Source: Actinomycetes bacterium (GTDB lineage: Bacteria; Actinomycetota; Actinomycetes; Actinomycetales; Dermatophilaceae). From it: DNA of 60,651 nucleotides. Location: positions 1 through 60,651 of the forward strand of contig JAKPEG010000026.1 in the NCBI GenBank assembly GCA_029552065.1. The letters run 5' to 3'. Positions 1 to 60,651 of this stretch are shown one piece after another. The notes beneath the pieces are model-generated. The model ran no database searches and was not told where the DNA came from. It saw only the letters and a program-made list of their open reading frames with translations. Position numbers and translations under genes: made by a program. Positions within the stretch are counted from its first letter, which is position 1, and every line of letters starts with the position of its first letter.

Positions 1-1169
1 GGCAGCGGTTCGATCCCCATCGCCCGGCGCTCGGCGTCGGTGAGCTGCCAGACGTCGTCCTCCGCCTCGGGCGGCAGTTCGTAGCCCTCCTCGATCCCTT
101 TGAGTCCGGCGGCGAGCAGGACGGCGAAGGCGAGGTAGGGATTGCACGCCGAGTCGATCGAACGGACCTCGACCCGGGTGGAGTTGCCTTTGTCCGGCTT
201 GTACATCGGCACGCGCACGAGCGCCGACCGGTTGTTGTGCCCCCAGGTGAGGTATGCCGGTGCCTCGCCGCCGCCCCAGAGCCGCTTGTAGCTGTTCACC
301 CACTGGTTGGTCACCGCAGTGATCTCGGCACCGTGGCGCAACAGACCGGCGATGAACTGCCGTCCGGTCTGGGACAGCTGGTAGGGGGCGCCACCCTCGT
401 GGAAGGCGTTGGTATCGCCCTCGAAGAGGCTCAGATGAGTGTGCATCCCCGAGCCGGGGTGCTCGCGGAAGGGCTTGGGCATGAACGACGCGAGAACGCC
501 CTGACCGAGAGCGACCTCCTTGACGACGGCCCGGAAGGTCATGATGTTGTCAGCCGTCGAGAGCGCGTCGGCATAGCGCAGGTCGATCTCGTTCTGTCCG
601 GGCGCACCCTCGTGATGGCTGAACTCGACCGAGATCCCCATGTTTTCCAGCAGGGTGATCGCCGCGCGACGGAAGTCGTGGGCGGTGCCGTGGGCGACGT
701 GGTCGAAGTAGCCGGCCTCGTCGACCGGCACCGGCGTGATCCGCTTGCCCTTGGGTTGGTGCAGGAGGAAGAACTCGATCTCCGGGTGGGTGTAGAAGGT
801 GAAGCCCAGGTCGCTGGCCTTGCCCAGCGCGCGACGCAACACGTGACGCGGGTCGGCGAAGCTCGGCTGACCGTCGGGGGTGAGCAGGTCGCAGAACATC
901 CGGGCGGTGCCCGGGCTCTCGCCCCGCCAGGGCAGCACTTGGAAGGTCGACGGATCGGGCTTGGCGAGCATGTCGGCCTCGTAGATCCGCGAGAGGCCCT
1001 CGATCGCCGAACCGTCAAAGCCGATCCCCTCGGCGAAGGCCCCCTCGAGCTCGGCCGGGGCGACGGCCACCGACTTGAGCGTGCCCACGACGTCGGTGAA
1101 CCACAACCGGACGAACCGGATATCCCGCTCCTCGATCGTGCGCAGGACGAACTCTTGCTGACGGTCCAT
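1..1169 (-). CDS. glnA2: Glutamine synthetase type I, GlnA2-like (3' end beyond window)
   Basis: ATP-dependent ligation of ammonia to glutamate in the cytoplasm. The start ATG at 1169 follows a GGAGG Shine-Dalgarno 6 nt upstream. The N-terminus (MDRQQEFVLRTIEERDIRF) resembles the actinobacterial GlnA2 subgroup rather than GlnA1. Visible family blocks are the FDGSAIEG segment, PEIEFFL, the GSGMHTHLSLFEG nucleotide-site segment, NQWVNSYKRL and the SIDSACNPYLAFAVLLAAGL block near the edge. About 389 codons are present, so roughly the last 55-60 residues of a usual 446-residue protein are missing. The assignment to GlnA2 rather than another GSI-alpha paralogue rests on remembered sequence and on the Rv2222c-like gene neighbourhood. 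Confidence 0.93.
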   Translation of the reverse strand, partial: MDRQQEFVLRTIEERDIRFVRLWFTDVVGTLKSVAVAPAELEGAFAEGIGFDGSAIEGLSRIYEADMLAKPDPSTFQVLPWRGESPGTARMFCDLLTPDGQPSFADPRHVLRRALGKASDLGFTFYTHPEIEFFLLHQPKGKRITPVPVDEAGYFDHVAHGTAHDFRRAAITLLENMGISVEFSHHEGAPGQNEIDLRYADALSTADNIMTFRAVVKEVALGQGVLASFMPKPFREHPGSGMHTHLSLFEGDTNAFHEGGAPYQLSQTGRQFIAGLLRHGAEITAVTNQWVNSYKRLWGGGEAPAYLTWGHNNRSALVRVPMYKPDKGNSTRVEVRSIDSACNPYLAFAVLLAAGLKGIEEGYELPPEAEDDVWQLTDAERRAMGIEPL

Positions 1170-1973: not shown

Positions 1974-1991
1974 CACGGAGAGTAGACCTGT

Positions 1992-3261: not shown

Positions 3262-3274
3262 TAGACTCCGCCGT
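3262..3274 (+). promoter_or_regulatory. Leaderless promoter of map (-10 TAGACT)
   Basis: TAGACT at 3262-3267 is followed by 7 nt and the ATG. There is no Shine-Dalgarno, so transcription should begin at or next to the start codon. Confidence 0.7.
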
Positions 3275-4138
3275 ATGCCGGTTGCCTACGCGCGTGTCAC
3301 ACCTCACGAGGTGAGCCCGCGCCGATCCGTGCCCGCCACCATCGCGCGGCCCGAGTACGTCGACCGGGCGGCCCCCGAGCGGTTCCAGGGCAGCGAGGTC
3401 AAGGACGCGGACACGATCGCCCGGATGCGGGTGGCCGGCCGGGTGGCCGCGCAGGCGATGGCGGCTGCGGCTGCCGCGATCGCCCCCGGGGTGACGACCG
3501 ACGAGCTCGACCGGATCGCCCACGAATTCCTCCTCGACCACGGCGCCTATCCCTCGACCCTCGGCTACCGCGGCTTCCCCAAGTCGATCTGCACGTCGGT
3601 CAACGAGGTCGTGTGCCACGGCATACCCGATGCCCGCCCCCTCCAGGACGGCGACATCGTCAACATCGACATCACGGCATACCTCGGCGGAGTGCACGGC
3701 GACACGGACGCGACCTATCTCGTCGGGGAGGTCGACGAGCAGTCGCGGTTGCTCGTCGAGCGGACCCGGGAGGCGATGCTCCGCGGCATACAGGCCGTCG
3801 CGCCGGGCCGCGAGATCAACGTGATCGGGCGCGTGATCTCTTCCTACGCAAGGCGGTTCGGCTATGGGGTGGTCCGTGACTTCACCGGCCACGGGATCGG
3901 CAGCGCCTTCCACAGCGGGCTCATCGTCCCCCACTACGACGCGGCGCCGGCATACAACACGGTCATCCAGCCCGGGATGACCTTCACGGTCGAGCCGATG
4001 CTCAACCTCGGCAGCCACGAGTGGGAGATGTGGGACGACGGTTGGACGGTCGTCACCCGCGACCGGCGCCGATCGGCCCAGTTCGAGCACACGATCCTCG
4101 TGACCGAGACCGGCGCCGAGATCCTCACGCTGCCGTGA
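3275..4138 (+). CDS. map: Methionine aminopeptidase, type I
   Basis: Removes the initiator Met from nascent proteins. The 287-residue protein has an actinobacterial N-terminal extension of about 40 residues before the pita-bread fold. Expected active-site residues are present: His115 (VVCHGIP), Asp132 (NIDITAY), Asp143 (HGDTD), His206 (FTGHGIG), Glu240 (FTVEPM) and Glu271 (QFEHT). The start at 3275 is chosen because a TAGACT -10 lies exactly 7 nt upstream with no Shine-Dalgarno, giving a leaderless mRNA. Upstream in-frame GTG/ATG codons would fall before the promoter. Followed after 57 bp by ppgK. It contains four copies of the CGGCATAC motif; two of them place ATA codons in HGIP and RGIQ. 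Confidence 0.96.
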
Positions 4139-5753: not shown

Positions 5754-5964
5754 GCCCCGAGCGTATGCCGTGTGCCCACCTCCACGGGCCCCTGTCACCC
5801 GCCCCGGTCGCCGGCCGCGAGAGGACCACCGGCGCCCGGCGGCCACACCGGCATGGGCACCCCCCGTGTGGTGACCTCGACCGCATGAGCCGAGACCGAA
5901 CGAACCGAGCCTGCCGCCCACCATAGGGTGGGAGGGCGACAGCCGCTGCCGAAAGGTGACCGCC

Positions 5965-7653
<1,689 letters not shown>

Positions 7654-7656: not shown

Positions 7657-8358
7657 GTGCCCGTTCCGCTCGCCACCACGGGCACCCGGCCGCGCCTCCC
7701 GCTGCGCCGCTACGTCATCGGGTATGCCGCGCTCGCGGCGGTCATGCTCGTCACCCGGCTACCGGGGGTGGGCGAGGGCGCCCACCGGGTCTCCACGGTC
7801 ACCCAGTGGCTGCTCGCCCCGGCGCTCGCGCTCGCCGTCGCGACCCTCGCGGCCCGGCCGTGGCCGCGCCTCGTGCGGTGGGCGCTCGTCGCGCTCGGGT
7901 GGTGCTTCCTCGGCGACCTGCTCCCCTCGCTCGTCCCGGACGGCGGGTCGAACCGGTTCCTCGTCATGGTCGGCGCCTTCTTCGTCGCCCAGCTGTCCTG
8001 GATCGTCGCCTTCTGGCCGTGGCGTGGTGCCGCATTCCGCGGCCGACAGCGTTGGGCGGCAACGGCATACGGGCTGGTCGCGGTGGCCCTGCTCGCAGTC
8101 TGTGTGCCCGCGGCCGGCCCGCTCGCCGTGCCGGTCGTGGGCTACGCCGCGGCCCTCACGACGATGGCCGTGCTCGCGCTGGGCCCCGATCGGGTGGTCG
8201 CGTGGGGCGGCGCGCTCTTCCTCGTCTCCGACTCGCTCATCGCGATCGAGGCCTTCGCGCCCCGGCTCACGCTGCCCGGCCACGGCGTGTGGGTGATGGC
8301 GACGTATGCCGCCGCCCTCGCGCTGCTCGCCTTCGGAGCCGTGCGCACAGGTCGGTGA
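7657..8358 (+). CDS. YhhN/TMEM86-family lysoplasmalogenase-like membrane protein
   Basis: Predicted integral membrane protein of 233 residues with about seven or eight hydrophobic segments. Family blocks are LGWCFLGDLLPSL and the LFLVSDSLIAIEAF motif, which hold the acidic residues conserved in the family. Characterised members hydrolyse the vinyl-ether bond of lysoplasmalogens; whether this one does is not shown. The GTG start at 7657 is 3 bp after the pgi stop, so it is probably translated by coupling. An Arg-rich stretch (AFRGRQRW) separates the hydrophobic halves. Confidence 0.85.
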   Translation: MPVPLATTGTRPRLPLRRYVIGYAALAAVMLVTRLPGVGEGAHRVSTVTQWLLAPALALAVATLAARPWPRLVRWALVALGWCFLGDLLPSLVPDGGSNRFLVMVGAFFVAQLSWIVAFWPWRGAAFRGRQRWAATAYGLVAVALLAVCVPAAGPLAVPVVGYAAALTTMAVLALGPDRVVAWGGALFLVSDSLIAIEAFAPRLTLPGHGVWVMATYAAALALLAFGAVRTGR

Positions 8359-8376: not shown

Positions 8377-9336
8377 TCACTCCGCCGGGGGGACGACGCT
8401 CACCCGATAGGGCACGTCCGGCGTCTCGTCGCTCAGCTGCCCCTCGACCCAGAGCAGCCGGCCGCGGTCCCTCGCGATCGTCGTCGGACCGACCTCGACC
8501 GCAGACACCCGCGCCGAGTCCCGCACGACGACAGCCGCACTGAAGTCCCCGGTGAACTGGGCCGTCCGGACGAACGTCTCCTCGGTCGCCCAGTCGGTCT
8601 GCACCGACTCGAGAGTGTGGCCCCGCAGCAGCAGCCCGTCACCGCCGAGCGACCCACCAGCCACCGCGACCTCGCGGACCTCGCCCGTCCGGGCATCCAC
8701 CCGCCAGGTCGTGTTCGTCGACCAGTCGGCCACGAGCAGCCACCGGCCGTCGGACGTCGCGACGATCCCGTTGAGGAACTCCGCCTTCGCACCGAACGCG
8801 TCCGGCCCGGCGAAGGGCACGAAGTCACCCAGAGCGGTGGCCGACAGGTCGGCGCGGTAGACCGTGCTCGTGAACGAGTCGGTCGCGAAGACCGCATCCC
8901 GAGTCATCGCGAAGTCGTTGAGGAAGTGCTCGCCCGCCAGAGTGCGCTTCGCGAGCAAGGTGCCGTCGGCGGCATACCGGAAGAAGGTGCCGTCGAAGGC
9001 GCCGGTGACCAGCACGGTCCCCCAGCGGTCGACATGGATGCCGGTGGCGTGGTCGCGACCGTCCGACCCAGCCGGCAGCCAGGTCCGGAAGACGCCCGTG
9101 CGGGTGTCCCCACGGAATACCGCGCCGGTGAAGACGCTCGTCACGTATGCCGTGCCCTCCTGGGTCACGTGGATCCCCTCCAGTCCGTTCGCGGGGTCCG
9201 CCGTGATGGCATAGCTCAGCGGGCGCGGATGGGTGACGTCGGGGGTCTCGGCGGCGGCCGTTGCGGGCGCAGCGAGGGCGGCCGCGAGGGCGGCTGCGGT
9301 CAGCGTGATCGCCAGGCGGCGAAGGTCATGGGTCAC
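8377..9336 (-). CDS. Secreted SMP-30/gluconolactonase-like beta-propeller protein
   Basis: 319 residues. A signal peptide (THDLRRLAITLTAAALAAA...ATAAAE) precedes repeated propeller blades with motifs such as GLEGIHVTQEGTAYVTSV, ATGIHVDRWGTVLVTGAF, FLNDFAMTRDAVFATDSF and FLNGIVATSDGRWLLVADW. The blade sequence is of the SMP-30/strictosidine synthase-like type; the substrate is unknown. The GTG start at 9336 follows AGGAGGA with 6-nt spacing, preferred over a long upstream extension that lacks any ribosome site. It ends 18 bp from the convergent lysoplasmalogenase gene. Confidence 0.82.
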   Translation of the reverse strand: MTHDLRRLAITLTAAALAAALAAPATAAAETPDVTHPRPLSYAITADPANGLEGIHVTQEGTAYVTSVFTGAVFRGDTRTGVFRTWLPAGSDGRDHATGIHVDRWGTVLVTGAFDGTFFRYAADGTLLAKRTLAGEHFLNDFAMTRDAVFATDSFTSTVYRADLSATALGDFVPFAGPDAFGAKAEFLNGIVATSDGRWLLVADWSTNTTWRVDARTGEVREVAVAGGSLGGDGLLLRGHTLESVQTDWATEETFVRTAQFTGDFSAAVVVRDSARVSAVEVGPTTIARDRGRLLWVEGQLSDETPDVPYRVSVVPPAE

Positions 9337-9485: not shown

Positions 9486-10466
9486 GTGATCGAGATCCGG
9501 CTGGAGGCGCCGGCCTTGGCCCACGTCCGCTACGTCCTCGACCCGGTCTGGGAGACCGTCTCGGCCTACCAGTCACTGCTGAGTCGGGAGAGCCAGGTCG
9601 TGCACCGCCGGCTCGCGGCGGTCGTCGCACAGGCGCGAGTCCCCCTCGGCGGCCTGCTGGCCGAACTGCTCGGCGACCCCATGGCGATGCCGGGCCTCGT
9701 CCTCCCCGTTCCGGCGCCGGAGGCGACGGATCCGCGGACCAGCTTCGAACGCATCCTGCGCACTCCCCGCGCAGAGTTGGTCGACGACCTCGACTGGCTG
9801 AGGGAGACCAGGCCTACGACAAGCGCGGCCTCGCTCACCCCACGGGCGCTGGCCGAGCGGACCCATTCCGAGCTGTGGGTCTTCTGGAGCGGGGTCGTCG
9901 CGCCGATGTGGCCACGGCTCGCGGCAGTGGCCGGCGCCGACATCGCACACCGCTCGGCGCGGCTGGCGTCCGCCGGCCTCGGCGCGGCTCTCGAGGGGCT
10001 CCATCCGGCTGTTTCGTTCACCGGCGACAAGATCCGGATCGACAAGCCGCAGCGGGTCGACGTCACCGCGCAGGACGGGCTCTGGCTCGTGCCGAACGTG
10101 TTCCGGTGGCCCTCGATCGCAGCCCGGTGGGGGTCGGGCACTCCGGTGCTCTGCTACGCCGCCCGCGGTGCCGCGCTGGTGTGGGACGAGCGGCGCTCTG
10201 CCGACGCCCGAGTCGCCCGGCTGCTCGGGCGGTCCCGCGCCGACGTCCTTTCGCTTGCCGGCATACCGGCGAGCACAACCGAGATAGCGGTCGAACTCGG
10301 CCTGGCCAAGGCCGGCGTGAGCGAGCACCTGTCCGCGCTCACCGACGCGGGCCTCACGACCTCGCGCCGCAGCGGTCGGCGCGTGCTCTACGAGCGAACC
10401 CGGCTCGGCGATGAGCTGATGGCCGAGCCGCCGGCGGGCGCCGTCGCCGACCGCCACACGGGCTGA
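9486..10466 (+). CDS. ArsR-like winged-helix transcriptional regulator (326 aa)
   Basis: Long N-terminal part (about 240 residues) of the kind found in DUF5937-type regulators, with the segment LWVFWSGVVAPMWPRL. A C-terminal winged helix follows (LAGIPASTTEIAVELGLAKAGVSEHLSALTDAGLTTSRRSGRRVLYERT). The recognition helix is AKAGVSEHLSAL. The GTG at 9486 is 6 nt after GATGCT, so a leaderless start is possible; I see no good Shine-Dalgarno. It is divergent from the secreted propeller gene (149 bp between starts) and may regulate it. An ATA codon outside the CGGCATAC motif occurs in TEIAVE. Confidence 0.8.
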   Translation: MIEIRLEAPALAHVRYVLDPVWETVSAYQSLLSRESQVVHRRLAAVVAQARVPLGGLLAELLGDPMAMPGLVLPVPAPEATDPRTSFERILRTPRAELVDDLDWLRETRPTTSAASLTPRALAERTHSELWVFWSGVVAPMWPRLAAVAGADIAHRSARLASAGLGAALEGLHPAVSFTGDKIRIDKPQRVDVTAQDGLWLVPNVFRWPSIAARWGSGTPVLCYAARGAALVWDERRSADARVARLLGRSRADVLSLAGIPASTTEIAVELGLAKAGVSEHLSALTDAGLTTSRRSGRRVLYERTRLGDELMAEPPAGAVADRHTG

Positions 10467-10543: not shown

Positions 10544-10582
10544 CGGCCGGCCGGCATACCGCAGGGGTATGCCGGCCGGCCG
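10544..10582. terminator. Bidirectional terminator hairpin built on an inverted GTATGCCG pair
   Basis: Perfect 17-bp arms (10544-10560 and 10566-10582) with a 5-nt loop, between the ArsR-like gene and the convergent orphan gene. The loop-proximal 8 bp of each arm plus flanking base is GGTATGCC and its complement. Confidence 0.85.
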
Positions 10583-11597: not shown

Positions 11598-13685
11598 TCA
11601 GCCCGCGCGGGCGAGGGTGAAGGGCAACACCTCGGGGGCACCGGCCAGGCGCAGTTCGCGGGCGGCGACCGTGAGGGTCCAGCGCGAGTCGACGAAGTCG
11701 TCGACGAGCAGCACGGGACCCGGTATGCCGTGCAGCCGACCTCCCAGCTCGGCGCCCACCCGCAGCCGCTCCCACACCCCGGCGAGCCGGTAGGCGCTGT
11801 TTCCGCCGGGCTCCCCCGTCGGCCCCGGGCCGACGAGCTCGAGCGAGCCGAGCAACGGCAGTCGCCCCAACCGGGCGAGCGCGTCTGCGAGCGAGCCGAC
11901 GAGTTCGGGCCGACGCCGGGAGGGCATCGCGACGACCGCGACCGGGCGCTGCTCCCACCCCCAGCCGGCGAGCACCCGCACGGCGGCGTCGACGAGCTCG
12001 TCCGGCACCGGGGCGTCGGGAGCCTGCAGCAGGCTGCGCAGCCGCTGCCCCCAGCCGAGGTCACTGAGCCGCGCGAGCGCCCGACCCTCGGCAGCCTGCT
12101 CGTCGGCGGCGATCCGCCCGCGCACGCCCACCCCGAGCCGGTCCATGCCGGTCGGCCACTGCGCCCGCGGCTCGAGCGGCACGCCGACCCGGGTAAGGGC
12201 CGCCCCGGCGGTGAGCCGCGCCGCGTCCGGCACCGAGGCGGCATACCAGGGGGTCGTGCAGGTGTCGCAGCGTCCGCACGGGGCGGCGCTCGGGTCGTCG
12301 AGGCTGCGCTGGAGGAAGGCCATCCGGCATTCGCCGGTCGCCTCGTAGTCGAGCATGAGCCCCTGCTCGTGGCGACGGGCGGCGGCGACGCGCTCGTAGC
12401 GCTGCGCGTCATAGCGCCAGGGAGCGCCGGTCGCGACCCAGCCGCCGTGGACCCGGCTCACCGCGCCGTCGACGTCGAGGACCTTGAGCAGCAGCTCCAA
12501 CCGGGTGCGCCGCACGTCGACCGCCGTCTCGAGCGCGGCGGTCGAGCGGGGCCCGCCCGCGGCGCCCAGCGCGGCCAGCACCGCGTCGGCCTGGTCCTGA
12601 CGGGGCATCGACACGGAGGCGAAGTAGGCCCACAGATCGCGGTCCTCGGCACCCGGTAACAGCAGGACGTCGGCCCGCTCGGTGGCCCGGCCGGCGCGCC
12701 CGATCTGCTGGTAGTAGGCGACCGGGGAGCTCGGCGCGCCGAGGTGGACGACGAAACCGAGGTCGGGTTTGTCGAAGCCCATGCCCAGCGCGGAGGTCGC
12801 CACCAGCGCCTTCACCTCGTTGCCACGCAGCGCCGCCTCGAGTGCCTCGCGCTCGGCCGGGTCGGTGCGCCCGGTGTATGCCGCGACGCGATGGCCGGCA
12901 GCCGCGAGGGTGGCCGCGACGTCCTCGGCGGCTGCGACCGTGAGAGCGTAGACGATGCCGCTGCCGGGCAACTCCCCCAGGTGGGCGAGCAGCCAGCCGA
13001 TCCGCTCGGCATCGCCCCGGGTCGCCAGCACGCCGAGGCGCAGGCTGGGGCGGGCCAGTCCCCCGCGGATCGTCGTCACCGACACTCCGCCGACGGTGAG
13101 CTGGGCCTCGACGTCGGCGACCACGCGGGCGTTGGCAGTCGCGGTGGTGGCGAGCACGGGCGTGCCGGTCGGCATCGCCCGCAACACCTCGACGATCCGC
13201 CGGTAGTCGGGCCGGAAGTCGTGCCCCCAGTCGCTCACGCAGTGGGCCTCGTCGACGACGAGCAGCCCGGCACGGCGCACGAGGTCGGGCAGTTGCTCGG
13301 CCCGGAAGGCGGGATTGTTGAGCCGTTCGGGGCTGAGCAGCAGGACGTCGACGGTGTCCTCGGCGAGGGCCGCGGCGACATCGGGCCAGTCCAGGACGTT
13401 GGCCGAGTTCATCGTCATGGCACGGATGCCGGCGCGGGTCGCCGCGGCGATCTGGTCGCGCATGAGCGAGAGCAGCGGCGAGACGATGACGGTCGGGCCT
13501 GCCCCGGCCTCGCGCAGGAGGCTGGTGGCGACGAAGTAGACCGCGGACTTCCCCCAGCCGGTGCGCTGGACGACGAGCACCCGGCCGCGGTCCTGCACGA
13601 GTGCCTCGATCGCCTCGCGCTGCCCCTCGTGGAAGTCCGCCTCCGGATCGCCGACGAGCCGGCGCAGGGCCTGCAGGGCGCTCAG
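11598..13685 (-). CDS. recQ: RecQ-family DNA helicase with C-terminal phosphoribosyltransferase-like domain
   Basis: 3'-5' DNA helicase for recombination and repair, about 695 residues. It shows EGQREAIEAL, Walker A TGWGKSAVYF, SPLLSLMRDQ, DEAHCVSDWGHDFRPDYRR, ATTATAN, the helicase C-terminal AYYQQIGRAGR and a zinc-site CGRCDTC. The last 200 residues carry a PRTase signature (VLLVDDFVDSRWTLTVAA). No ATG, GTG or TTG exists in frame upstream of the Q motif; the next GTG would remove it. The best start is the CTG at 13685, which overlaps the stop of the CPBP gene as CTGA with GGCGG 5 nt upstream. Either a CUG start by translational coupling or a sequencing error must be assumed. Confidence 0.88.
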   Translation of the reverse strand: MSALQALRRLVGDPEADFHEGQREAIEALVQDRGRVLVVQRTGWGKSAVYFVATSLLREAGAGPTVIVSPLLSLMRDQIAAATRAGIRAMTMNSANVLDWPDVAAALAEDTVDVLLLSPERLNNPAFRAEQLPDLVRRAGLLVVDEAHCVSDWGHDFRPDYRRIVEVLRAMPTGTPVLATTATANARVVADVEAQLTVGGVSVTTIRGGLARPSLRLGVLATRGDAERIGWLLAHLGELPGSGIVYALTVAAAEDVAATLAAAGHRVAAYTGRTDPAEREALEAALRGNEVKALVATSALGMGFDKPDLGFVVHLGAPSSPVAYYQQIGRAGRATERADVLLLPGAEDRDLWAYFASVSMPRQDQADAVLAALGAAGGPRSTAALETAVDVRRTRLELLLKVLDVDGAVSRVHGGWVATGAPWRYDAQRYERVAAARRHEQGLMLDYEATGECRMAFLQRSLDDPSAAPCGRCDTCTTPWYAASVPDAARLTAGAALTRVGVPLEPRAQWPTGMDRLGVGVRGRIAADEQAAEGRALARLSDLGWGQRLRSLLQAPDAPVPDELVDAAVRVLAGWGWEQRPVAVVAMPSRRRPELVGSLADALARLGRLPLLGSLELVGPGPTGEPGGNSAYRLAGVWERLRVGAELGGRLHGIPGPVLLVDDFVDSRWTLTVAARELRLAGAPEVLPFTLARAG

Positions 13686-14448: not shown

Positions 14449-14849
14449 GGACGAGTCGGTCGATACGCCGGGTTCTGTCCCGGACGGTGCCGCCGAAGCG
14501 ACCCCGTCGCGGTGACGGTCATCCATCTCGGCCGGCCATTGCTGACCGGCTCCAGCGCCCTACCCGCAGACTCGGGCGGGCCGCCCTCGAACGCCTGCTG
14601 TCTGGGCTTGCTCCGGGTGGGGTTTACCGAGCCGACCGGGTCACCCCGGCCGCTGGTGGTCTCTTACACCACCGTTTCACCCTTACCCCGGGTGCCGGCG
14701 GACCGGCATACCGGGGCGGTTTGCTTTCTGTGGCACTGTCCCGCGGATCGCTCCGGGTGGCTGTTGGCCACCACCCTGCCCTGGGGAGCCCGGACGTTCC
14801 TCGGCACCCGGCTCGCACCGGGTGACGCGACCGTCTGACCGACTCGTCC
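14449..14849 (-). ncRNA. rnpB: RNase P RNA, bacterial type A
   Basis: Ribozyme that matures tRNA 5' ends. The ends pair as P1: GGACGAGTCGGTC at 14849-14837 with its complement at 14461-14449. Conserved blocks on the minus strand are GAGGAACGTCCGGGCTCC, GACAGTGCCACAGAAA, GGTAAGGGTGAAACGG, GTAAGAGACCACCAGC, AGACAGCAGG, GATGGATGACCG and GGGACAGAACCCGGCGTATC. About 401 nt, normal for actinomycetes. A short variable hairpin CCGG-TATG-CCGG near 14702-14713 contains a copy of the window-wide GTATGCCG motif. Exact ends are inferred from P1. Confidence 0.95.
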
Positions 14850-14935
14850 GTCCCCGAGTGTATGCCGTGCGCCCCGCCTCGCGCGGTCGAGCCCGTGCCG
14901 CGAGGGCTGTCGGTGCGACGGCATACCGTGGGCGC

Positions 14936-27690: not shown

Positions 27691-29246
<1,556 letters not shown>

Positions 29247-35599: not shown

Positions 35600-36850
<1,251 letters not shown>

Positions 36851-46892: not shown

Positions 46893-46928
46893 GGTATGCC
46901 GCCCGCTCACCGCAGCGGGCGGCATACC
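46893..46928. terminator. Intra-operon hairpin between gluB and gluC
   Basis: 15-bp perfect stem (46893-46907 and 46914-46928) with a 6-nt loop. Its outer 8 bp are GGTATGCC and complement. Expected to give more binding protein than permease. Confidence 0.8.
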
Positions 46929-47626: not shown

Positions 47627-48594
47627 GCTCGGTCCTGTTCGACCACCCCGGGCCCAAGGCCCGGGCCCGCTACCGGGTGATCGCCGCCGTGAGCGTCGTC
47701 CTCGCGATCGCGCTGTTGGCCTGGATGGGTTCCCGGTTCGCCGAGAAGGGCAACTTCGCCGCCGCGAAGTGGCAGCCCTTCACCAAGGCGGAGGTCTGGG
47801 TGAACTACATCCTCCCCGGGCTCGGCAACACCCTCAAGGCGGCGGCGATCTCCATGGTCCTCGCCGGCATCTTCGGTGTCGTCTTCGGCCTGGGTCGTCT
47901 CTCCCAGGTCGCGGCCGTCCGGTGGGTGAGCACGGGGGTCGTCGAGCTCTTCCGGGCGGTGCCCGTGCTCGTCATGATGCTCACGACCTACACCTTGGGA
48001 GTCTTCACCCTCAAGCTCGGCGCGCAGGCGCCCCTCGTCGCCGTCGTCACCGGCCTCACCCTCTACAACGGCGCGGTCGTCGCCGAGCTCATCCGCTCCG
48101 GGGTCGGCAGCCTGCCCAAGGGACAGCGCGAGGCCGGGCTGGCGATCGGCCTCTCCCACAACCAGACCCTGCGGCTGGTCGAGTTGCCCCAGGCGATCAC
48201 GGCGATGCTGCCGGCCCTCGTCGGCCAGATGGTCGTCGTCCTCAAGGACACAGCCATCGGTTTCGTCGCGGCCACCTACTTCGAGATGCTGCGTGCGAGT
48301 GACCAGATCGGCTCCGCCTACGGCAATCCCGTGCCGGCCTACCTGGTCATCGCCGTCATCTACATCCTCGTCAACTACGGCGTCACGAGCCTTGCGGCAT
48401 ACCTCGAACGACGTTCACGGGAGAAGGGACGCGCGACGATCGCGGTCGGCGCGGCCGGTCCGGGACACGTCCCACCGGTGGATGCCGCACCGGTGAGCGC
48501 GGTCCGCCATGAGGTCGACGACGAATACCTCCGTGAGCACTACCGGCACGCCGACGAGGGGCCGACGACTCCCACCCAGACTGGCCGCGAGTGA
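47623..48594 (+). CDS. gluD: Glutamate ABC transporter permease GluD
   Basis: 323-residue second permease. VVELFRAVPVLVMMLTTYTLG, EAGLAIGLSHNQTLRLVELPQAI (EAA loop) and five to six hydrophobic segments. It has a hydrophilic C-terminal tail of about 55 residues (HEVDDEYLREHYRHADEGP) not needed for transport. Coupled to gluC. Confidence 0.93.
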   Translation: MSSVLFDHPGPKARARYRVIAAVSVVLAIALLAWMGSRFAEKGNFAAAKWQPFTKAEVWVNYILPGLGNTLKAAAISMVLAGIFGVVFGLGRLSQVAAVRWVSTGVVELFRAVPVLVMMLTTYTLGVFTLKLGAQAPLVAVVTGLTLYNGAVVAELIRSGVGSLPKGQREAGLAIGLSHNQTLRLVELPQAITAMLPALVGQMVVVLKDTAIGFVAATYFEMLRASDQIGSAYGNPVPAYLVIAVIYILVNYGVTSLAAYLERRSREKGRATIAVGAAGPGHVPPVDAAPVSAVRHEVDDEYLREHYRHADEGPTTPTQTGRE

Positions 48595-48748: not shown

Positions 48749-49531
48749 ATGAAGACCGTCGTCCTCGTGAAATACGTCCCCGAACCCACCGCGACCTGGA
48801 AGTTCGCCGCCGACCTCACGGTCGACCGCGCGGCCGTCGAAGGTCGCCTCTCCGAGCTCGACGAGTATGCCGTCGAGCAGGCAGCACAGTTGCAGGAGAA
48901 GGGTGTTGCCTCCGAGGTCGTGTTCCTCACGGTCGGTCCGGCCAAGGCGACCGAGGGTCTGCGCAAGGCCCTCGCGATCGGCGGCGACAAGGGTGTCCAC
49001 GTGTTGGACGACGCCATTCACGGTTCGGACGCCCTGTCCACCTCACTCGTGATCGCCAAGGCGATCGAGAAGATCGGCAGGGTCGACCTCGTCCTCGCGG
49101 GCATGGCCTCGACCGACGCGGAACTTTCCGTCGTGCCCTCGATGGTCGCCGACCGCCTCGGCCTCAACCAGGCGACCTTCGCCGGCGAGCTCGCCGTGGA
49201 CGGCGGCACCGTCTCGATCCGTCGCGACTCCGACGCCGCGAGCGAGCGGGTGAGCGCCGCCCTCCCCGCGGTCGTCTCGGTGACCGACCAGACCGGTGAG
49301 GCCCGCTACCCGGCCTTCAAGGCGATCATGGGCGCGAAGAAGAAGCCCATCGAGACGCTCTCGCTCGCCGACCTCGGCGTCTCGGCCGCGCAGGTGGGAC
49401 TGGCCGCCGCCGCGACGAAGACCATTGACGTCTCCCCCACGCCGGCCCGCGCCGCAGGGACCATCGTCAACGACGACGGCACCGGCGCAGCTCAGCTCGC
49501 CGACTTCCTCGCCGGACGCGGCTTCATCTGA
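48749..49531 (+). CDS. etfB: Electron transfer flavoprotein, beta subunit
   Basis: 260 residues, MKTVVLVKYVPEPTATWKF at the start, DEYAVEQAAQL and the signature VLAGMASTDAELSVVPSMVADRLG, and the ETF-beta loop YPAFKAIMGAKKKP. Binds AMP and forms the heterodimer with EtfA that accepts electrons from acyl-CoA dehydrogenases. First gene of the etfB-etfA-etfD-acyl-CoA dehydrogenase run. Confidence 0.96.
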   Translation: MKTVVLVKYVPEPTATWKFAADLTVDRAAVEGRLSELDEYAVEQAAQLQEKGVASEVVFLTVGPAKATEGLRKALAIGGDKGVHVLDDAIHGSDALSTSLVIAKAIEKIGRVDLVLAGMASTDAELSVVPSMVADRLGLNQATFAGELAVDGGTVSIRRDSDAASERVSAALPAVVSVTDQTGEARYPAFKAIMGAKKKPIETLSLADLGVSAAQVGLAAAATKTIDVSPTPARAAGTIVNDDGTGAAQLADFLAGRGFI

Positions 49532-50533: not shown

Positions 50534-50564
50534 GCCGGGGGTGTGCCGGCGGCATACCCCCGGC
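50534..50564. terminator. Hairpin after etfA from a near-perfect motif pair
   Basis: Arms 50534-50547 and 50551-50564, 14 bp with one mismatch or wobble (GTGTGCC against GGCATAC), loop GGC. Confidence 0.75.
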
Positions 50565-52826: not shown

Positions 52827-52848
52827 ACGGCATACCCCCGTATGCCGT
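52827..52848. terminator. Hairpin after etfD from an inverted motif pair
   Basis: ACGGCATAC, CCCC loop, GTATGCCGT; 9-bp perfect stem. Confidence 0.8.
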
Positions 52849-54647: not shown

Positions 54648-54672
54648 ACGGCATACCTCGTCGGTATGCCGT
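54648..54672. terminator. Hairpin after the acyl-CoA dehydrogenase from an inverted motif pair
   Basis: ACGGCATACC, 5-nt loop, GGTATGCCGT; 10-bp perfect stem. Confidence 0.8.
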
Positions 54673-54746: not shown

Positions 54747-57700
54747 ATGACCGACGTCCACCCCGTCGCCGTTGTCGGAATCGCCGCCATCATGCCGATG
54801 GCACCCGACGGCGACGCCTTCTGGGCCAACATCACCGGAGGCCGCTACTGCGTGACCGAGGTGCCGCCGGAGCGGTGGGATCCCAAGCTCTACTACTCCC
54901 CCGACCACTCGGCCCGGGACAAGACCTACTCGACGATCGGCGGCTGGGTCCGTGAGTTCGAGTGGGATCCCATCCGGTGGAAGCTGCCGATCCCCCCGAC
55001 GGTCGCGGCGCAGATGGACCAAGGGCAGCGGTGGGCGCTCTCGGCCGCGCGGCGGGCGCTACTCGACGCCGGCTGGCCCTCGTGGACGGTCGACAGCGAC
55101 AAGGTCGCCGTCATCCTCGGCAACGCCATCGGCGGCGAGAAGCACTACCAGTCCTCGATGCGCATCCAGCTGCCCGAGGCGCTCAAGCGGCTGCAGGAGT
55201 CGGCGACCCTGCGCACGCTGCCGGCGGACATGCAGCAGCGGATCGTCGAGGAGACCCGTTCCGGTTACCTGGACAACATGTTCGAGATCACCGAGGACAC
55301 GATGCCCGGTGAGCTGTCCAACGTCATCGCCGGCCGGATCGCCAACGTGCTCAACCTGCGCGGACCCAACTACACCACCGACGCCGCCTGCGCCTCCGGC
55401 CTCGCGGCGGTGAACTCCGCCATCCTCGGTCTCAACGACCACCAGTACGACGCGGTGATCACCGGCGGCATCGACCGCAACATGGGCGTCGACGCCTTCG
55501 TGAAGTTCTGCAAGATCGGCGCGCTCTCGGCGACCGGCACCCGTCCGTTCGACGCCGGCGCCGACGGCTTCGTCATGGGCGAGGGCGCCGCGGTCTTCGT
55601 GCTCAAGCGGCTCGAGGACGCCGAGCGCGACGGCGACAAGATCTACGCCACCATCCTCAGCGTCGGTGGCTCCTCCGACGGCAAGGGCAAGGGGATCACC
55701 GCGCCCAACCCGGTCGGCCAGCAGCTCGCCGTCGCGCGCGCCTGGGAGCGCGCCGGGCTCGACCCGGCGACCGTCACCGCCATCGAGGCCCACGGCACGT
55801 CGACCCGCGTCGGCGACGCCACCGAGCTGGAGAGCATCGACAAGATCTTCGGTGCCGCCGGGGCCAAGCCCGGCAGCATCGCCCTCGGCTCGGTGAAGTC
55901 GAACATCGGCCACCTCAAGGCCTCCGCGGGCACCGCGGGCATGTTCAAGATGGTCCGCTCCCTCCACGAGAAGGTCCTGGCCCCCTCGCTCAACTTCGTC
56001 ACCCCCAACGAGAACGTCGACTGGGACCGGACGCCGGCCAAGGTCAACACCACCCTGCGTCCGTGGAGCGACACCGGGCCCGAGGGGATCCGCCGCGGTG
56101 GCGTGTCCGCCTTCGGCTTCGGCGGGACCAACTTCCACGTCGTCCTCGAGGAGCACGTCCCCGGCCGGCACAAGCCGCGCCCCACGGTCTTCGCCTCCGC
56201 CGAGGTCCCGGCCGCCGCCGGGACGTATGCCGCGGCCGCCCCGGCCGCGGGCGTCACCGTGTCCGCACCGGTGGCCGCCCCTGTGTCCGCCCCCGCCGAG
56301 CGCAAGGTGCCGCTGCGCGGTGCGCTCGTCCTCGGGGGTCGCGACGACGCCGACGTGCTCCGCCAGGTGCAGGCGGCCCTCGCCGACGCCCGGGCCGGCA
56401 AGGCCCCGGCCCCGGCCGCGCCCGACCCGGCCCTCGCTCAGGCGGCCGTCCGCGTCGCCGTCGACTACGGCACCGCCGAGGAGCTGGCCGGCAAGCTCGA
56501 CAAGCTCGCCAAGGGCCTGGCCTCGGGCAACCCGGCGATCTTCAAGATGCTCCGTCAGCAGGGTGTCTTCCTCGGCCGTGGCCCGGCTCCCAAGGTGGCC
56601 TTCCTCTACACCGGCCAGGGCAGCCAATACGTCAACATGCTCAAGGAGCTCAACTCCGAGCCGATCGTCAAGGCGACCTTCGACCAGGCCGACCGGGTGA
56701 TGACCCCGCTCCTGGGCGCGCCGCTCACCTCGTTCATCTACGTCGACTCCGCCGACGAGAAGGCGGTGAAGGCCGCCACCAAGAAGCTCATGCAGACCGA
56801 GATCACCCAGCCGGCCGTGCTCGCGACCGACCTGTCACTCACCCGGCTCCTCGCGGCATACGGCATCGAGCCCGACATGGTGATGGGGCACAGCCTCGGC
56901 GAATACGGCGCGCTGGTGGCCGCCGGATCGCTCTCCCTCGACGCCGCGATGGAGGCCGTGAGCGCCCGCGGACGCGAGATGGCCAAGGTCTCGGTCGAGG
57001 ACAACGGCGCCATGGCCGCCGTCTTCGGTCCGCTCGAGGAGATCCAGCGGGTGGTCGACGCCGCCGACGGCTACGCCGTCGTGGCCAACATCAACTCCTA
57101 CAACCAGGCCGTCGTCGGCGGGGCCACCAAGGCCGTCGAGGCGATCATGGAGGTGTTCGCCGGCAAGGGGATCAACGCGATCCGCATCCCGGTGAGCCAC
57201 GCCTTCCACACCTCGATCGTCGCGCCCGCCTCGGTGCCGTTCGTCAACGCACTGCGTCGACTCAACCTCGTCGGACCCAACCGACCGATCGTCGCCAACG
57301 TCACCGGCGAGTTCTACCCGGCCGACGCGACCACCGAGACGATGCTCGACTACACGGGCAAGCAGATCGCCTCGCCGGTGCAGTTCGTCAAGGGCCTGCA
57401 GACGCTGTATGCCGCGGGCGCCCGGGTCTTCGTCGAGGTCGGTCCCAAGAAGGCCCTGCACGGCTTCGTCGAGGACGTCCTCGTGAGCCACCACGACGAC
57501 GTGCTCGCCCTCTTCACCAACTTCCCCAAGCTCGACGACAAGACCGCCTTCAACCAGGCGCTCTGCGGTCTCTACGCCTCCGGCTTGGGCTTCACCATGC
57601 CCGCGCCGGTCGCGGCACCCGCGGCGGCCCCCGTCGTCGCGGCAACCGCTCCCGCGGTCACAGCGGCTCCCGTCGCCCCGGTTACCCCGGTCGTTGCGGG

Positions 57701-60651
57701 TGCGCAGGGCGCGCCCTCGGACACGGTCATCACCGAGCTGGGCAAGCTCTTCGCGGGCGTGCTCGAGCAGGGCATGAAGCTCTACGGCTTCCCGTCCGGC
57801 GGTGCCGCCCCGGCCCCGGCCCCGGCCCCGGCGGCTGCGGCGCTGCCTGCCGCCGGCCCCGGCCAGGAGCCGGTCGTCATCTCCGGCGCCGGCCTCGGCC
57901 TGCCCGGGGTGGAGTCGACCTTCGACGACGCCAACATCGCCCGCATCCTCTCCGGCGAACAGTTCATCGGCCAGCTGCCGATGAGCATGCGCACCCGGAT
58001 GGCCCGGATGCGAGTCACCCGCCTCGTGAAGGACGCCATCACCGGTGCCGGCCACTTCGAGCGGATCGAGAACCCCGACGAGGTCATCAAGCTCGCCGGT
58101 CGGCACGCGCCGCTGGACGTCGTCGAGCAGTACGGCATCGACGCCGGACGCGACGCCGCCCTCGACGTGACGACCCGGATGGCCATCGCCGCGGGCTACG
58201 ACGCCCTCCGGGACGCCGGCATACCGCTCGTCATGCACTACAAGGCGACGACCATCGGCACCCAGCTGCCCGACCGGTGGGCGCTGCCGCTCAACATGCG
58301 CGACGACACCGGGATCATCTTCGCCTCGGCCTTCCCGGGCGCGGACAACTTCACCCAGATCGTCGAGCACTACGTCGAGGACAAGGCCCGGCGCGAGCAC
58401 ATCGTCGCCCTCGAGGGTGCCCGCACGCGGCTGTCCGACCCCGCGGCGGTCGCGGAGATCGACGCACTCCTGGCCCAGCTCAAGGCCGAGATCGAGGCCC
58501 GCCCGTTCGAGTTCGACCGGCGCTTCCTCTTCCGCGTGCTGTCCATGGGGCACTCCCAGTTCGCCGAGATCATCGGAGCCCGGGGCCCCAACACGCAGCT
58601 CAACGCCGCCTGCGCGAGCACGACCCAGGCCATCGGCGTCGCCGAGGACTGGATCCGCTCCGGCCGCTGCCGCCGGGTGATCGTCGTCTCGGCCGACGAC
58701 GTGAGCAACGACAACCTCATGCCGTGGATCGGGACCGGGTTCATCGCGACCGGTGCCGCGGCCACCGACGCGCGGGTCGAGGACGCCGCCCTGCCGTTCG
58801 ACCGTCGCCGGCACGGCATGATCATCGGCTCCGGCGCGGCCGCCGTCGTCCTCGAGTCGGCCGAGGCAGCTCGCGAACGCGGGGTCCAGCCGATCGCCCA
58901 GTTGCTGTCCACGGTCTTCGCGAACAGCGCATTCCACGGCACCCGCCTCGACGTCGAGCACATCTGCGGCGTCATGGAGACGGCCGTGCGCGAGGCCGAA
59001 CGCTGGGGCATCGACCGGCACGCCATCGCGCCCCAGCTCATGTTCATGTCGCACGAGACCTACACCCCGGCTCGCGGCGGCAGTGCCGCAGCCGAGATCA
59101 ACGCCCTTCGCCGGGCCTTCGGTGCCGACGCGGACAAGATCGTCATCACCAATACCAAGGGCTTCACCGGGCACGCGATGGGTGCGGGCATCGAGGACGT
59201 CGTGGCGATCAAGGCCCTGGAGACCGGGCTGGTCCCGCCGGTGCCCAACTACAAGGAGCCCGACCCCGACCTCGGCCAGCTCAACCTCTCGCGGGGTGGC
59301 AGCTACCCGGTCGGCTATGCGCTGCGCCTGGCCGCCGGCTTCGGCTCGCAGGTCGCCATGGCGGTCCTGCGCTACCTGCCCATGCCCGACGGCGTCCGCC
59401 GCTCCCCCACCGAGCTCGGCTTCGCCTACCGCGTCGTCGACCCCGCCGCATGGCAGCGGTGGCTCGACTCGTTGTCGGGTCACTCCGGCAGTCAGCTCGA
59501 GATCGACCGCCGCAGGTTGCGCATCGTCGACACCGGTGCCCCGGCCGCCCCGGTCGCCGCGACGACGAACGTCCCGATGCCGTATGCCGCGATGACTCGC
59601 GGCGCGCTCGCCGGCACGGGCGTCGTCCCGGCCGCCGCCGCGGCACCCGTGACCGCTCCTGCGCCGGCTCCGGTCGCCGCTCCGGTCCCGGCTCCCGTTG
59701 CCGCGCCGGCACCGGTCGCTGCGCCTGCACCTGCGCCGGTCGCGGCCCCCGCACCTGTCGCAGCTCCCGAGCCGCCGGCCGCGCCGGTGGACCCGGTGCT
59801 CGACACGGTCACCGGGATCGTCTCCGGGCTCACCGGTTACCCGGCCGACCTGCTCGACCCCGATCTCGACCTCGAGGCCGACCTGGGCGTCGACACGGTC
59901 AAGCAGGCGGAGGTCTTCGCCGCCGTCCGCGAGCACTACGGCGTGGAACGCGACGAGACCATGCGCCTGCGCGACTTCCCGACCCTGCGCCACGTCGCCG
60001 GCTGGGTGCGCACGAAGGCAGGCCTGCCCGAGCCCTCCGCCGCGCCCGCGGCCGCCCCTGTCGCCACACCGGTTGCCGCTGCCGCGGCCGCGGCACCGGC
60101 CGTCGTCTCGGCCCCGGTGGCCGCGCCGGCCCCGGCTGCGGCGGCTGCCGCTGCCCCCGCGGCGGACCCGGTCGTCGGGAAGGTCGTCGACATCGTCGCC
60201 GACCTCACCGGCTACCCCGCCGACCTACTCGACCCCGACCTCGACCTCGAAGCAGACCTCGGCGTCGACACCGTCAAGCAGGCCGAAGTCTTCGCCGCCG
60301 TCCGCGACCACTACGGCGTCGAACGCGACGACACCCTCAAGCTGCGCGACTTCCCCACCATCCGGGCCGTCGCCGGCTGGATCCGCGGCAAGGCCGGCAT
60401 CCCCGAACCCACCGCCACACCCGCACCCGCAGCAGCAGCACCCGCACCCGCGGCAGCACCCGCGGCGGCACCCGCAGCAGCGGCAGCCGGCGGCCTGGAC
60501 GAGGTGACCCAGAAGGTCGTCGACATCGTCGCCGACCTCACCGGCTACCCCGCCGACCTACTCGACCCCGACCTCGACCTCGAAGCAGACCTCGGCGTCG
60601 ACACCGTCAAGCAGGCCGAAGTCTTCGCCGCCGTCCGCGACCACTACGGCG
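54747..60651 (+). CDS. Large multidomain synthase, KS-AT-KS-ACP-ACP-ACP (3' end beyond window)
   Basis: At least 1968 residues. KS1 (1-480): Cys214 in TTDAACASGLAAVN, EAHGTSTRVGDATE, KSNIGHLKASAG. AT (about 605-950): GQGSQYVNML, Ser near 715 in GHSLGEYGALVAAG, SHAFHTSIV. After an Ala/Pro linker comes KS2 (1040-1590), more divergent, with NAACASTTQ (Cys near 1289), SHETYTPARGGSAAAE and NTKGFTGHAMGAG. Three carrier repeats follow, in Ala/Pro linkers. Each reads DLGVDTVKQAEVFAAVR, with Thr1717, Thr1842 and Thr1953 where Ser is expected. Tandem carriers recall PfaA-type polyunsaturated fatty acid synthases, but the KS-AT-KS order differs. GGAAGG precedes the ATG. Confidence 0.9.
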   Translation, partial: MTDVHPVAVVGIAAIMPMAPDGDAFWANITGGRYCVTEVPPERWDPKLYYSPDHSARDKTYSTIGGWVREFEWDPIRWKLPIPPTVAAQMDQGQRWALSAARRALLDAGWPSWTVDSDKVAVILGNAIGGEKHYQSSMRIQLPEALKRLQESATLRTLPADMQQRIVEETRSGYLDNMFEITEDTMPGELSNVIAGRIANVLNLRGPNYTTDAACASGLAAVNSAILGLNDHQYDAVITGGIDRNMGVDAFVKFCKIGALSATGTRPFDAGADGFVMGEGAAVFVLKRLEDAERDGDKIYATILSVGGSSDGKGKGITAPNPVGQQLAVARAWERAGLDPATVTAIEAHGTSTRVGDATELESIDKIFGAAGAKPGSIALGSVKSNIGHLKASAGTAGMFKMVRSLHEKVLAPSLNFVTPNENVDWDRTPAKVNTTLRPWSDTGPEGIRRGGVSAFGFGGTNFHVVLEEHVPGRHKPRPTVFASAEVPAAAGTYAAAAPAAGVTVSAPVAAPVSAPAERKVPLRGALVLGGRDDADVLRQVQAALADARAGKAPAPAAPDPALAQAAVRVAVDYGTAEELAGKLDKLAKGLASGNPAIFKMLRQQGVFLGRGPAPKVAFLYTGQGSQYVNMLKELNSEPIVKATFDQADRVMTPLLGAPLTSFIYVDSADEKAVKAATKKLMQTEITQPAVLATDLSLTRLLAAYGIEPDMVMGHSLGEYGALVAAGSLSLDAAMEAVSARGREMAKVSVEDNGAMAAVFGPLEEIQRVVDAADGYAVVANINSYNQAVVGGATKAVEAIMEVFAGKGINAIRIPVSHAFHTSIVAPASVPFVNALRRLNLVGPNRPIVANVTGEFYPADATTETMLDYTGKQIASPVQFVKGLQTLYAAGARVFVEVGPKKALHGFVEDVLVSHHDDVLALFTNFPKLDDKTAFNQALCGLYASGLGFTMPAPVAAPAAAPVVAATAPAVTAAPVAPVTPVVAGAQGAPSDTVITELGKLFAGVLEQGMKLYGFPSGGAAPAPAPAPAAAALPAAGPGQEPVVISGAGLGLPGVESTFDDANIARILSGEQFIGQLPMSMRTRMARMRVTRLVKDAITGAGHFERIENPDEVIKLAGRHAPLDVVEQYGIDAGRDAALDVTTRMAIAAGYDALRDAGIPLVMHYKATTIGTQLPDRWALPLNMRDDTGIIFASAFPGADNFTQIVEHYVEDKARREHIVALEGARTRLSDPAAVAEIDALLAQLKAEIEARPFEFDRRFLFRVLSMGHSQFAEIIGARGPNTQLNAACASTTQAIGVAEDWIRSGRCRRVIVVSADDVSNDNLMPWIGTGFIATGAAATDARVEDAALPFDRRRHGMIIGSGAAAVVLESAEAARERGVQPIAQLLSTVFANSAFHGTRLDVEHICGVMETAVREAERWGIDRHAIAPQLMFMSHETYTPARGGSAAAEINALRRAFGADADKIVITNTKGFTGHAMGAGIEDVVAIKALETGLVPPVPNYKEPDPDLGQLNLSRGGSYPVGYALRLAAGFGSQVAMAVLRYLPMPDGVRRSPTELGFAYRVVDPAAWQRWLDSLSGHSGSQLEIDRRRLRIVDTGAPAAPVAATTNVPMPYAAMTRGALAGTGVVPAAAAAPVTAPAPAPVAAPVPAPVAAPAPVAAPAPAPVAAPAPVAAPEPPAAPVDPVLDTVTGIVSGLTGYPADLLDPDLDLEADLGVDTVKQAEVFAAVREHYGVERDETMRLRDFPTLRHVAGWVRTKAGLPEPSAAPAAAPVATPVAAAAAAAPAVVSAPVAAPAPAAAAAAAPAADPVVGKVVDIVADLTGYPADLLDPDLDLEADLGVDTVKQAEVFAAVRDHYGVERDDTLKLRDFPTIRAVAGWIRGKAGIPEPTATPAPAAAAPAPAAAPAAAPAAAAAGGLDEVTQKVVDIVADLTGYPADLLDPDLDLEADLGVDTVKQAEVFAAVRDHYG
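60179..60651 (+). repeat. 140-bp identical repeat in carrier domains 2 and 3
   Basis: 60179-60318 equals 60512-60651 base for base (offset 333 bp, 111 codons). Copy 2 stops only because the window ends, so more repeats may follow. Carrier 1 encodes the same protein with different codons. Confidence 0.95.

Follow-up and report, generated by a model that had tools for sequence, protein, structure and literature searches.

Self-recognition words for DNA import have so far been described in two Gram-negative families. The DNA uptake sequences (DUS) of the Neisseriaceae occur in thousands of copies and in dialects that can differ by as little as a single base, with two dialects possible per genome and some genomes of the family lacking any; their inverted pairs are linked to terminators, and their receptor is the pilin ComP (Frye et al. 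2013, PMC3630211, in the sections available to us). The uptake signal sequences of the Pasteurellaceae exceed 1,000 copies, lie about equally on the two strands and form terminator-like pairs (PMC7811141, PMC1852404, PMC1939737), and their even spacing is cited from earlier work in the accessible parts of two of these papers (PMC1852404, PMC1939737). Here we describe an octamer, GTATGCCG, in a 60,651-nucleotide stretch of DNA (the window; positions 1 to 60,651 of contig JAKPEG010000026.1, assembly GCA_029552065.1) from an actinomycete of the Dermatophilaceae. We regard it as highly probable that GTATGCCG is a DNA uptake sequence, acting via a receptor on a predicted Flp/Tad competence pilus.

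GTATGCCG resembles the Neisseriaceae DUS in its thousands of copies, its dialects, the presence of two-dialect genomes and of family genomes without any word, and the Pasteurellaceae signals in its copy number, near-equal strands, inverted pairs and spacing. Its letters are unrelated to those of either family, its host is an actinobacterium and, unlike in the Pasteurellaceae, its flanks are only weakly preferred. The closest precedent for the machinery is Micrococcus luteus, whose transformation needs the tad-1 cluster; both tad clusters are required, and flp resides in tad-2 (Angelov et al. 2015, PMC4322843, in the parts accessible to us). The term ‘uptake sequence’ is absent from the main text of that paper. 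As in M. luteus, an actinobacterial host carries a tadA-B-C-pilin cluster together with comEA and comEC, a likeness that here is one of genes, whereas the short Flp-like frame lies within the tad-1-like locus itself. We found no description of an actinomycetotal uptake sequence among the open-access papers listed for Actinobacteria, Gram-positives, this family or this word.

Abundance and spacing of GTATGCCG

The word was first singled out from the letters of the window as a candidate uptake-type signal (the original prediction). It is non-palindromic, differing from its own reverse complement, and occurs exactly 80 times, 41 on the + and 39 on the - strand, in agreement with the roughly 80 copies, the span and the near-equal strands first proposed. 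No other 8-mer that occurs 15 times or more in the window is as strongly enriched (80 vs. 1.0 for GTATGCCG). Dinucleotide-preserving shuffles of the window gave a mean of 1.03 copies and a maximum of 4; the predicted excess is thus borne out, and the accompanying chance estimate, about 2, erred on the high side if at all. A genome-wide count, suggested at the time as a check, found the same: the genome from which the window comes (GCA_029552065.1, 3.65 Mb, hereafter the own genome; sampled genomes of relatives are numbered G, and sequence stretches or loci L) holds 2,026 + 2,039 = 4,065 copies, compared to 152 of a reversed-word control.

Eighty-three family genomes reach a density of 0.1 copies per kb or more, and their combined totals for the two strands are 84,630 and 84,776. 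In the relative G082, whose chromosome is closed, strands were also balanced within small counts in 20 stretches spread around it (164 vs. 172; the most uneven stretches had 4 vs. 1 and 9 vs. 13); skew round a chromosome was measured in this relative, while the own genome is represented by its strand totals and the window. Mapping strand and position therefore uncovered no skew in either the window or G082, as anticipated by the earlier remark that replication-oriented elements such as KOPS and Chi fit poorly.

Flanking bases are weakly preferred in the own genome (G before the word in 198/348 copies, C or T after it in 287/348) and differ in G082 (C before, CG after). Pooled, the 24 one-mismatch words of GTATGCCG number 76 in a 120-kb sample of the own genome, where ~97 are expected, and are not in excess; one of them, CTATGCCG, is raised there (15 vs. 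2.6). We also note that CTATGCC is raised in 294 kb of own samples with GTATGCCG masked (73 vs. 10.7), possibly as a weaker variant of the word.

Spacing was analyzed in three samples: own DNA (294 kb, with locus L033 omitted), G082 (398 kb) and 13 other motif-rich loci (235 kb). In all three, same-orientation GTATGCCG pairs fall short of expectation out to ~1 kb. Pooled observed vs. expected counts are 18 vs. 37.9 at 60-150 bp, 34 vs. 62.6 at 150-300 bp, 39 vs. 83.0 at 300-500 bp, 83 vs. 102.0 at 500-750 bp and 68 vs. 102.1 at 750-1000 bp, whereas pairs of opposite orientation are about at or above expectation in the same five bins (41/37.6, 68/62.8, 107/83.0, 114/103.7 and 99/100.9). The ratio of same- to opposite-orientation pairs for GTATGCCG is the lowest of 25 frequent 8-mers in own DNA (0.55; median of all, 1.2), the lowest of 19 in G082 (0.68; median 1.1), where the runner-up (0.70) overlaps GTATGCCG, and the lowest of 18 in the pooled sample. 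This pattern suggests that a single copy may act for the DNA lying to one side of it, across roughly the ~1 kb within which same-orientation copies are rare. Orientation-specific avoidance between copies of an uptake sequence is a feature for which we found no report in the portions of the open-access literature available to us, and it is not mentioned in the accessible parts of the Pasteurellaceae papers (PMC1852404, PMC1939737).

Placement in genes and hairpins

Coding and intergenic positions were assigned with a simple gene caller made for this analysis. The original prediction placed copies in coding DNA of every frame; all six frame/strand classes do occur in the window, with a strong concentration of 43/56 coding copies in only two. 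These two classes correspond to Tyr-Ala in sense and Ala-Tyr in antisense, and they dominate likewise in the own and G082 samples. A copy in an RNA gene, also foreseen, is present on the sense strand of the RNase P RNA gene (14448-14846, - strand). In the own samples GTATGCCG is denser between genes (2.58 per kb) than in genes (0.96 per kb).

Ten inverted pairs of neighboring copies in the window lie no more than 65 bp apart. Five were folded and all five formed hairpins, four with z ≤ -3.3 and one with z -1.2, the last no better than many shuffles (24/200). Inverted DUS pairs of the Neisseriaceae are terminator-linked (PMC3630211, in part); the folded GTATGCCG pairs form hairpins and may act as terminators too. 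The intergenic hairpins envisaged at first are accordingly supported by the folding, although 2 of the 10 pairs are inside genes; the five folded hairpins have no long T-run, and a terminator role is putative.

One alternative is a Chi-like role, in which a repair nuclease of the RecBCD or AdnAB type would switch activity when it reaches GTATGCCG from one direction, the enzyme of each genus being adapted to that genus's variant. Chi words, too, are octamers found in many copies, and same-orientation avoidance would equally arise if a directional element were redundant over ~1 kb. We nevertheless consider this role unlikely: skew is missing from the window and from the 20 stretches of the closed G082 chromosome, the close inverted hairpin pairs and the intergenic excess in the own genome would be unexpected, and there is no evident reason why such a word should be limited to some genera of one family or be linked to a Tad locus, as described below.

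Distribution and one-base dialects

Relatives were sought with the AceE-like protein encoded in the window. Names among its best 120 relatives include Intrasporangium, Pedococcus, Terrabacter, Terracoccus, Oryzihumus, Nostocoides, Tetrasphaera and one Luteococcus, and the GTATGCCG-rich family is probably the Dermatophilaceae/Intrasporangiaceae. Of 149 family genomes, 83 have at least 0.1 GTATGCCG copies per kb, 13 have 0.04-0.1 and 53 have fewer. All 229 genomes from other families of the order fall at or below 0.09 per kb (248 were drawn from the order; genome sizes were rounded). An outgroup of 80 loci from other actinobacteria and some more distant bacteria, collected by a LeuS profile search of contigs (1.58 Mb), holds 35 copies vs. 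19 of the control.

Two other words that differ by one base are used by further members of the family, among them sister genera, GGATGCCG by 7 and GTACGCCG by 10 of the 149 genomes; the class thresholds are our own choice, and several g2 genomes as well as G126, G145, G158 and G020 are raised below them. Genome-wide copies of GGATGCCG number 4,480 in G124, 3,949 in G027, 3,838 in G086, 3,816 in G017 and 3,619 in G139, while G066 and G100 carry both GGATGCCG (2,195 and 2,099) and GTATGCCG (1,217 and 1,189). GTACGCCG reaches 4,185 copies in G123, 3,903 in G062, 2,618 in G070, 2,529 in G128, 2,366 in G102, 2,216 in G024, 2,111 in G098, 1,463 in G091, 1,359 in G025 and 1,125 in G076. Individual stretches show the same excess, for GGATGCCG in G124 (70 in 60 kb, 6.3 expected) and G017 (47, 4.6 expected) and for GTACGCCG in G102 (33 in 40 kb, 5.6 expected) and G062 (35 in 49 kb, 4.9 expected). 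Two words can occur within a single genus, where G026 and G117 hold 1,062 and 3,681 copies of GTATGCCG and G091 holds its GTACGCCG copies with 19 of GTATGCCG. G137 has a relaxed form, with 16 GTATGCCG, 11 GTATGGCG and 9 GTATGACG in 49 kb. The general reading that motif-poor genomes have lost the system was dropped once the one-base dialects were found.

The ratio of one-mismatch words to control, computed in 36 genomes, is ~1.0-1.2 in seven rich genomes (G000, G170, G117, G087, G082, G150, G090), 1.5-1.9 in seven other rich genomes, 2.2-3.2 in G124, G139, G017 and G086, and 1.4-1.6 in six genomes without any word (G002, G104, G155, G159, G095, G011). It is not a clean detector of dialects, as the GTACGCCG users G091 (0.9) and G062 (1.7) illustrate.

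Some other words are raised locally. G146 (L223, L224, L024, L192), a genome without the known dialects, has 17 copies of CGTAGACC / GGTCTACG vs. 1.9 in 71 kb, possibly a fourth word. In 40 kb of G159 (L226, L051), CCCCCTTCG (27 vs. 1.0) and CCTTAAGG (10 vs. 0.0) are repeats, and TCGTACAACA, found 15 times in 60 kb of G017 (L216-L218), is probably a local repeat.

Predicted uptake genes and the Tad-A locus

The com genes named in the original prediction are present: comEC (PF03772) occurs in 145/149 family genomes, and comEA and comEC are adjacent in the own genome. Several candidates for a gene separating motif-rich from motif-poor genomes were rejected. ComEC is ruled out by its near-universal presence in rich and poor alike, the comEA/comEC neighborhood has largely the same genes in both (20 genomes), and TadE (PF07811; 145/149, with several Tad systems per genome) is uninformative alone. 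Type IV pilins with an N_methyl domain (PF07963), as machinery comparable to the Neisseriaceae pilin receptor ComP, were rejected too, being present in only 4/149 genomes and missing from the own genome.

Two Tad loci were read in the own genome. One of them, Tad-A, has the order tadA-tadB-tadC-flp-like-tadE-tadF-tadG; its gene order and the N-termini of its TadE and TadF (judged by eye) are similar to those of M. luteus tad-1. Its TadA was found in 131/149 genomes at a cut-off of E<1e-80 that we chose. Any of the three words and Tad-A occur together in 95 genomes, a word alone in 3, Tad-A alone in 36 and neither in 15 (Fisher 7e-6, uncorrected for kinship). Two of the exceptions with a word are G069 (L211), which is motif-rich and retains remnants of tadA (residues 210-237) and tadC, so that its locus looks recently disrupted, and G108, a 73% complete genome in which tadF is present. 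A tadF match with one stop codon was observed in each of two motif-rich genomes (G082:C1:779720-780169 and G005:C22:129692-130129).

In a 32-sequence TadABC tree, at least 7 changes are needed to explain the GTATGCCG-rich state, 6 of them forced by well-supported branches; it therefore switched several times. This tree predates the discovery of the dialects, and of the 12 rows it scores as ‘poor’, 4 belong to genomes that use GTACGCCG.

Extra DNA interrupts the Tad-A locus in a number of genomes. In 11 of them tadA is in two pieces on one contig, ~4-79 kb apart, with breaks at the P-loop (about residue 205) and near residues 234, 296 and 105. DNA bearing recombinases or integrases splits the gene, and these enzymes lie beside the junction: ten insert proteins scanned from nine genomes included a large serine recombinase in six genomes and a tyrosine integrase in one, while the frames chosen from the G156 and G029 inserts gave neither. 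Five further genomes have a tadA-tadF gap of 12.6-39.6 kb vs. the usual ~2.4-2.8 kb (gaps taken by eye; two of the five loci were fetched, both with tadC cut). By this count 16/131 Tad-A loci are interrupted (L173-L188, L191, L212), and the tad-1-type locus appears to be an insertion hotspot. Interruption of comEC by transposable elements is described for another bacterium (PMC12955456, in the part available); no report of elements in tadA was found in the open-access literature on Tad pili with serine integrases.

As GTATGCCG is still abundant in 10 of the 16 genomes with an interrupted locus, many of these insertions probably happened recently. The inserts themselves are poor in the motif, with 13 copies in 130.7 kb from eight motif-rich genomes vs. 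67 expected at each genome's mean (only insert ends were sampled in two of the eight), and 9 of 10 insert stretches fall below the expected count.

The main competitor named at the outset was an effect of the HIP1 kind, in which the word would be maintained by DNA methylation or by a context-dependent mutation or repair bias, with no role in uptake. HIP1 is an octamer that is abundant in certain related genomes and not in others (we counted 32 copies in 50 kb of a Synechocystis plasmid), and both the abundance and the patchy occurrence of GTATGCCG are similar to those of the cyanobacterial word. Scarcity in recently acquired DNA would be expected as well. HIP1 is, however, a palindrome, which GTATGCCG is not, and we know of no dialect or pilus link for it. 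A local mutational process offers no evident reason for orientation-specific avoidance over hundreds of bp, would leave the association with Tad-A and the interruption of Tad-A by elements as coincidence, and gains little from the one-mismatch words, whose ratio is near 1 in seven rich genomes and raised in seven others. We judge such an effect very unlikely. A binding site for a chromosome-organizing or segregation protein (KOPS-, matS- or Noc-like) can account for high copy number across the whole chromosome but seems scarcely credible given the lack of strand skew in the G082 stretches, the very many copies, and the scarcity of the word, or its replacement by another, in relatives expected to share basic cell biology.

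Evidence for and against an uptake sequence

Conservation of sites was compared across the comEC region in four congeneric species that are 80-84% identical. Of 111 motif occurrences, 90 are intact in the partner, compared to 32.3 expected from 8-mers of equal A+T (six species pairs, both directions, one locus). The earlier interpretation as an uptake signal thus gains support from the excess, the lack of skew, the conservation in close species, the com genes, the dialects and the link to Tad-A. Taken together, the copy number, the strand symmetry, the hairpin pairs, the dialects, the kept sites, the paucity of the word in inserted DNA and the association with a pilus match the profile of an uptake sequence. 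Each of the three rival readings (Chi, HIP1 and segregation) leaves several of these features unaccounted for, and the first two are weakened.

A number of observations weigh against an uptake role. In three of the four species compared for conservation (G156, G018, G113), tadA is now interrupted, cut or absent, and the sites would therefore mostly have been kept before this happened. Conservation between relatives, one of the checks first proposed, was above background in these close species but not in the divergent pair G117/G026, which shares 2/10 sites, within the background of 15-21% (2/3 in the reverse direction). G082 has no intergenic excess (0.76 between genes vs. 0.86 per kb in genes), and one insert is not motif-poor (G158, L182; 4 vs. 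3.6). In smaller samples, the spacing effect is weak for GTACGCCG (19 vs. 29.9 at 300-1000 bp) and missing for GGATGCCG at the same distance (59 vs. 59.4), with 13 vs. 20.4 at 60-300 bp, and uptake by Haemophilus influenzae is reportedly unaffected by orientation (PMC1852404, PMC1939737, in the accessible parts).

The machinery also presents difficulties. The 36 genomes with Tad-A and none of the three words make a simple rule that Tad-A implies the motif false; some of them may rely on a further, fourth word or take up DNA without bias. G113 has the motif, and no Tad-A was found in it. G027, for all its GGATGCCG copies, has a locus without flp, tadE and tadF, and must have lost or relocated these genes recently if the uptake reading is right. 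Comparison of dialect-separating columns in ComEA, ComEC and the Tad-A proteins gave no clear receptor candidate: the best columns look inherited by clade in our judgment, and within one genus (G091 vs. G026/G117) there are 0-2 convergent positions in each of seven comparable proteins. No uptake or transformation experiment in these species was found in the open-access literature.

Table 1. Positions of GTATGCCG copies, inverted pairs and the marker gene in the window
Feature	Position	Strand	Remarks
Span of all 80 copies	252..59589	.	
Inverted pair	10552..10574	-,+	16-bp stem hairpin, between two convergent genes
Inverted pair	14860..14926	+,-	adjoins RNase P RNA gene
Inverted pair	20876..20917	-,+	within called gene
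Inverted pair	25597..25667	+,-	directly 3' of aceE-like gene
Inverted pair	26681..26751	+,-	intergenic
Inverted pair	27663..27684	+,-	hairpin, 13 bp past called gene end
Inverted pair	41022..41082	+,-	within called gene
Inverted pair	46894..46927	+,-	hairpin, 10 bp past called gene end
Inverted pair	52828..52847	-,+	hairpin, 10 bp past called gene end
Inverted pair	54649..54671	-,+	hairpin, 38 bp past called gene end
Copy in RNase P RNA gene	14704..14711	-	sense strand
AceE-like pyruvate dehydrogenase E1 gene	22752-25547	+	used for finding relatives
Single copy	252..259	+	
Single copy	3273..3280	+	intergenic
Single copy	3619..3626	-	
Single copy	3675..3682	-	
Single copy	3784..3791	-	
Single copy	3948..3955	-	
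Single copy	5763..5770	+	intergenic
Single copy	6213..6220	+	
Single copy	6282..6289	-	
Single copy	7235..7242	-	
Single copy	7722..7729	+	
Single copy	8063..8070	-	
Single copy	8304..8311	+	
Single copy	8970..8977	-	
Single copy	9145..9152	+	
Single copy	10259..10266	-	
Single copy	11723..11730	+	
Single copy	12239..12246	-	
Single copy	12876..12883	+	
Single copy	14199..14206	+	
Single copy	16204..16211	+	
Single copy	16342..16349	-	
Single copy	16729..16736	-	
Single copy	16832..16839	+	
Single copy	17879..17886	+	
Single copy	18154..18161	+	
Single copy	18736..18743	-	
Single copy	18869..18876	+	
Single copy	21618..21625	+	
Single copy	22046..22053	+	
Single copy	23920..23927	-	
Single copy	24257..24264	+	
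Single copy	24568..24575	-	
Single copy	25222..25229	-	
Single copy	25880..25887	+	intergenic
Single copy	27285..27292	-	
Single copy	28992..28999	+	
Single copy	31472..31479	-	intergenic
Single copy	31611..31618	+	intergenic
Single copy	32610..32617	+	
Single copy	32720..32727	-	intergenic
Single copy	33437..33444	-	
Single copy	35839..35846	+	
Single copy	36908..36915	-	
Single copy	37762..37769	+	
Single copy	41962..41969	-	
Single copy	42566..42573	-	
Single copy	43048..43055	+	
Single copy	43694..43701	-	
Single copy	44280..44287	+	
Single copy	46646..46653	+	
Single copy	48395..48402	-	
Single copy	48865..48872	+	
Single copy	50550..50557	-	intergenic
Single copy	56225..56232	+	
Single copy	56854..56861	-	
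Single copy	57407..57414	+	
Single copy	58217..58224	-	
Single copy	59582..59589	+	

Proposed mechanism and significance

Under the uptake reading, Tad-A would be a competence pilus like its M. luteus counterpart, and a receptor on this predicted pilus would bind free DNA bearing GTATGCCG. DNA of the organism's own kind would then be imported preferentially through ComEA/ComEC and recombined. With uptake biased by the motif in this way, copies may accumulate because alleles that carry it are imported and recombined more often (molecular drive). If each copy is a one-sided tag, copies of equal orientation would space out and opposite ones would ignore each other, and mobile elements may fight the import system by cutting the gene for the pilus motor. 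The full picture, with sequence-gated import across the family, dialects by genus, a Flp/Tad rather than a type IVa pilus, a one-sided tag of ~1 kb and mobile elements that cut the motor gene, has in our view about an even chance of being correct.

If true, this would be a further independent origin of self-recognition words, in the Actinomycetota and on a Tad pilus, and its comparison with the known systems could test why such words arise, whether through mate choice, molecular drive or the mechanics of a receptor. The dialects are natural experiments toward finding that receptor. Intrasporangium calvum and Pedococcus cremeus, which we infer to be G016 (1,142 copies) and G064 (2,417 copies), appear to carry GTATGCCG, making the proposal testable at the bench, and a functioning tag could offer a route for introducing DNA into actinobacteria that resist engineering.

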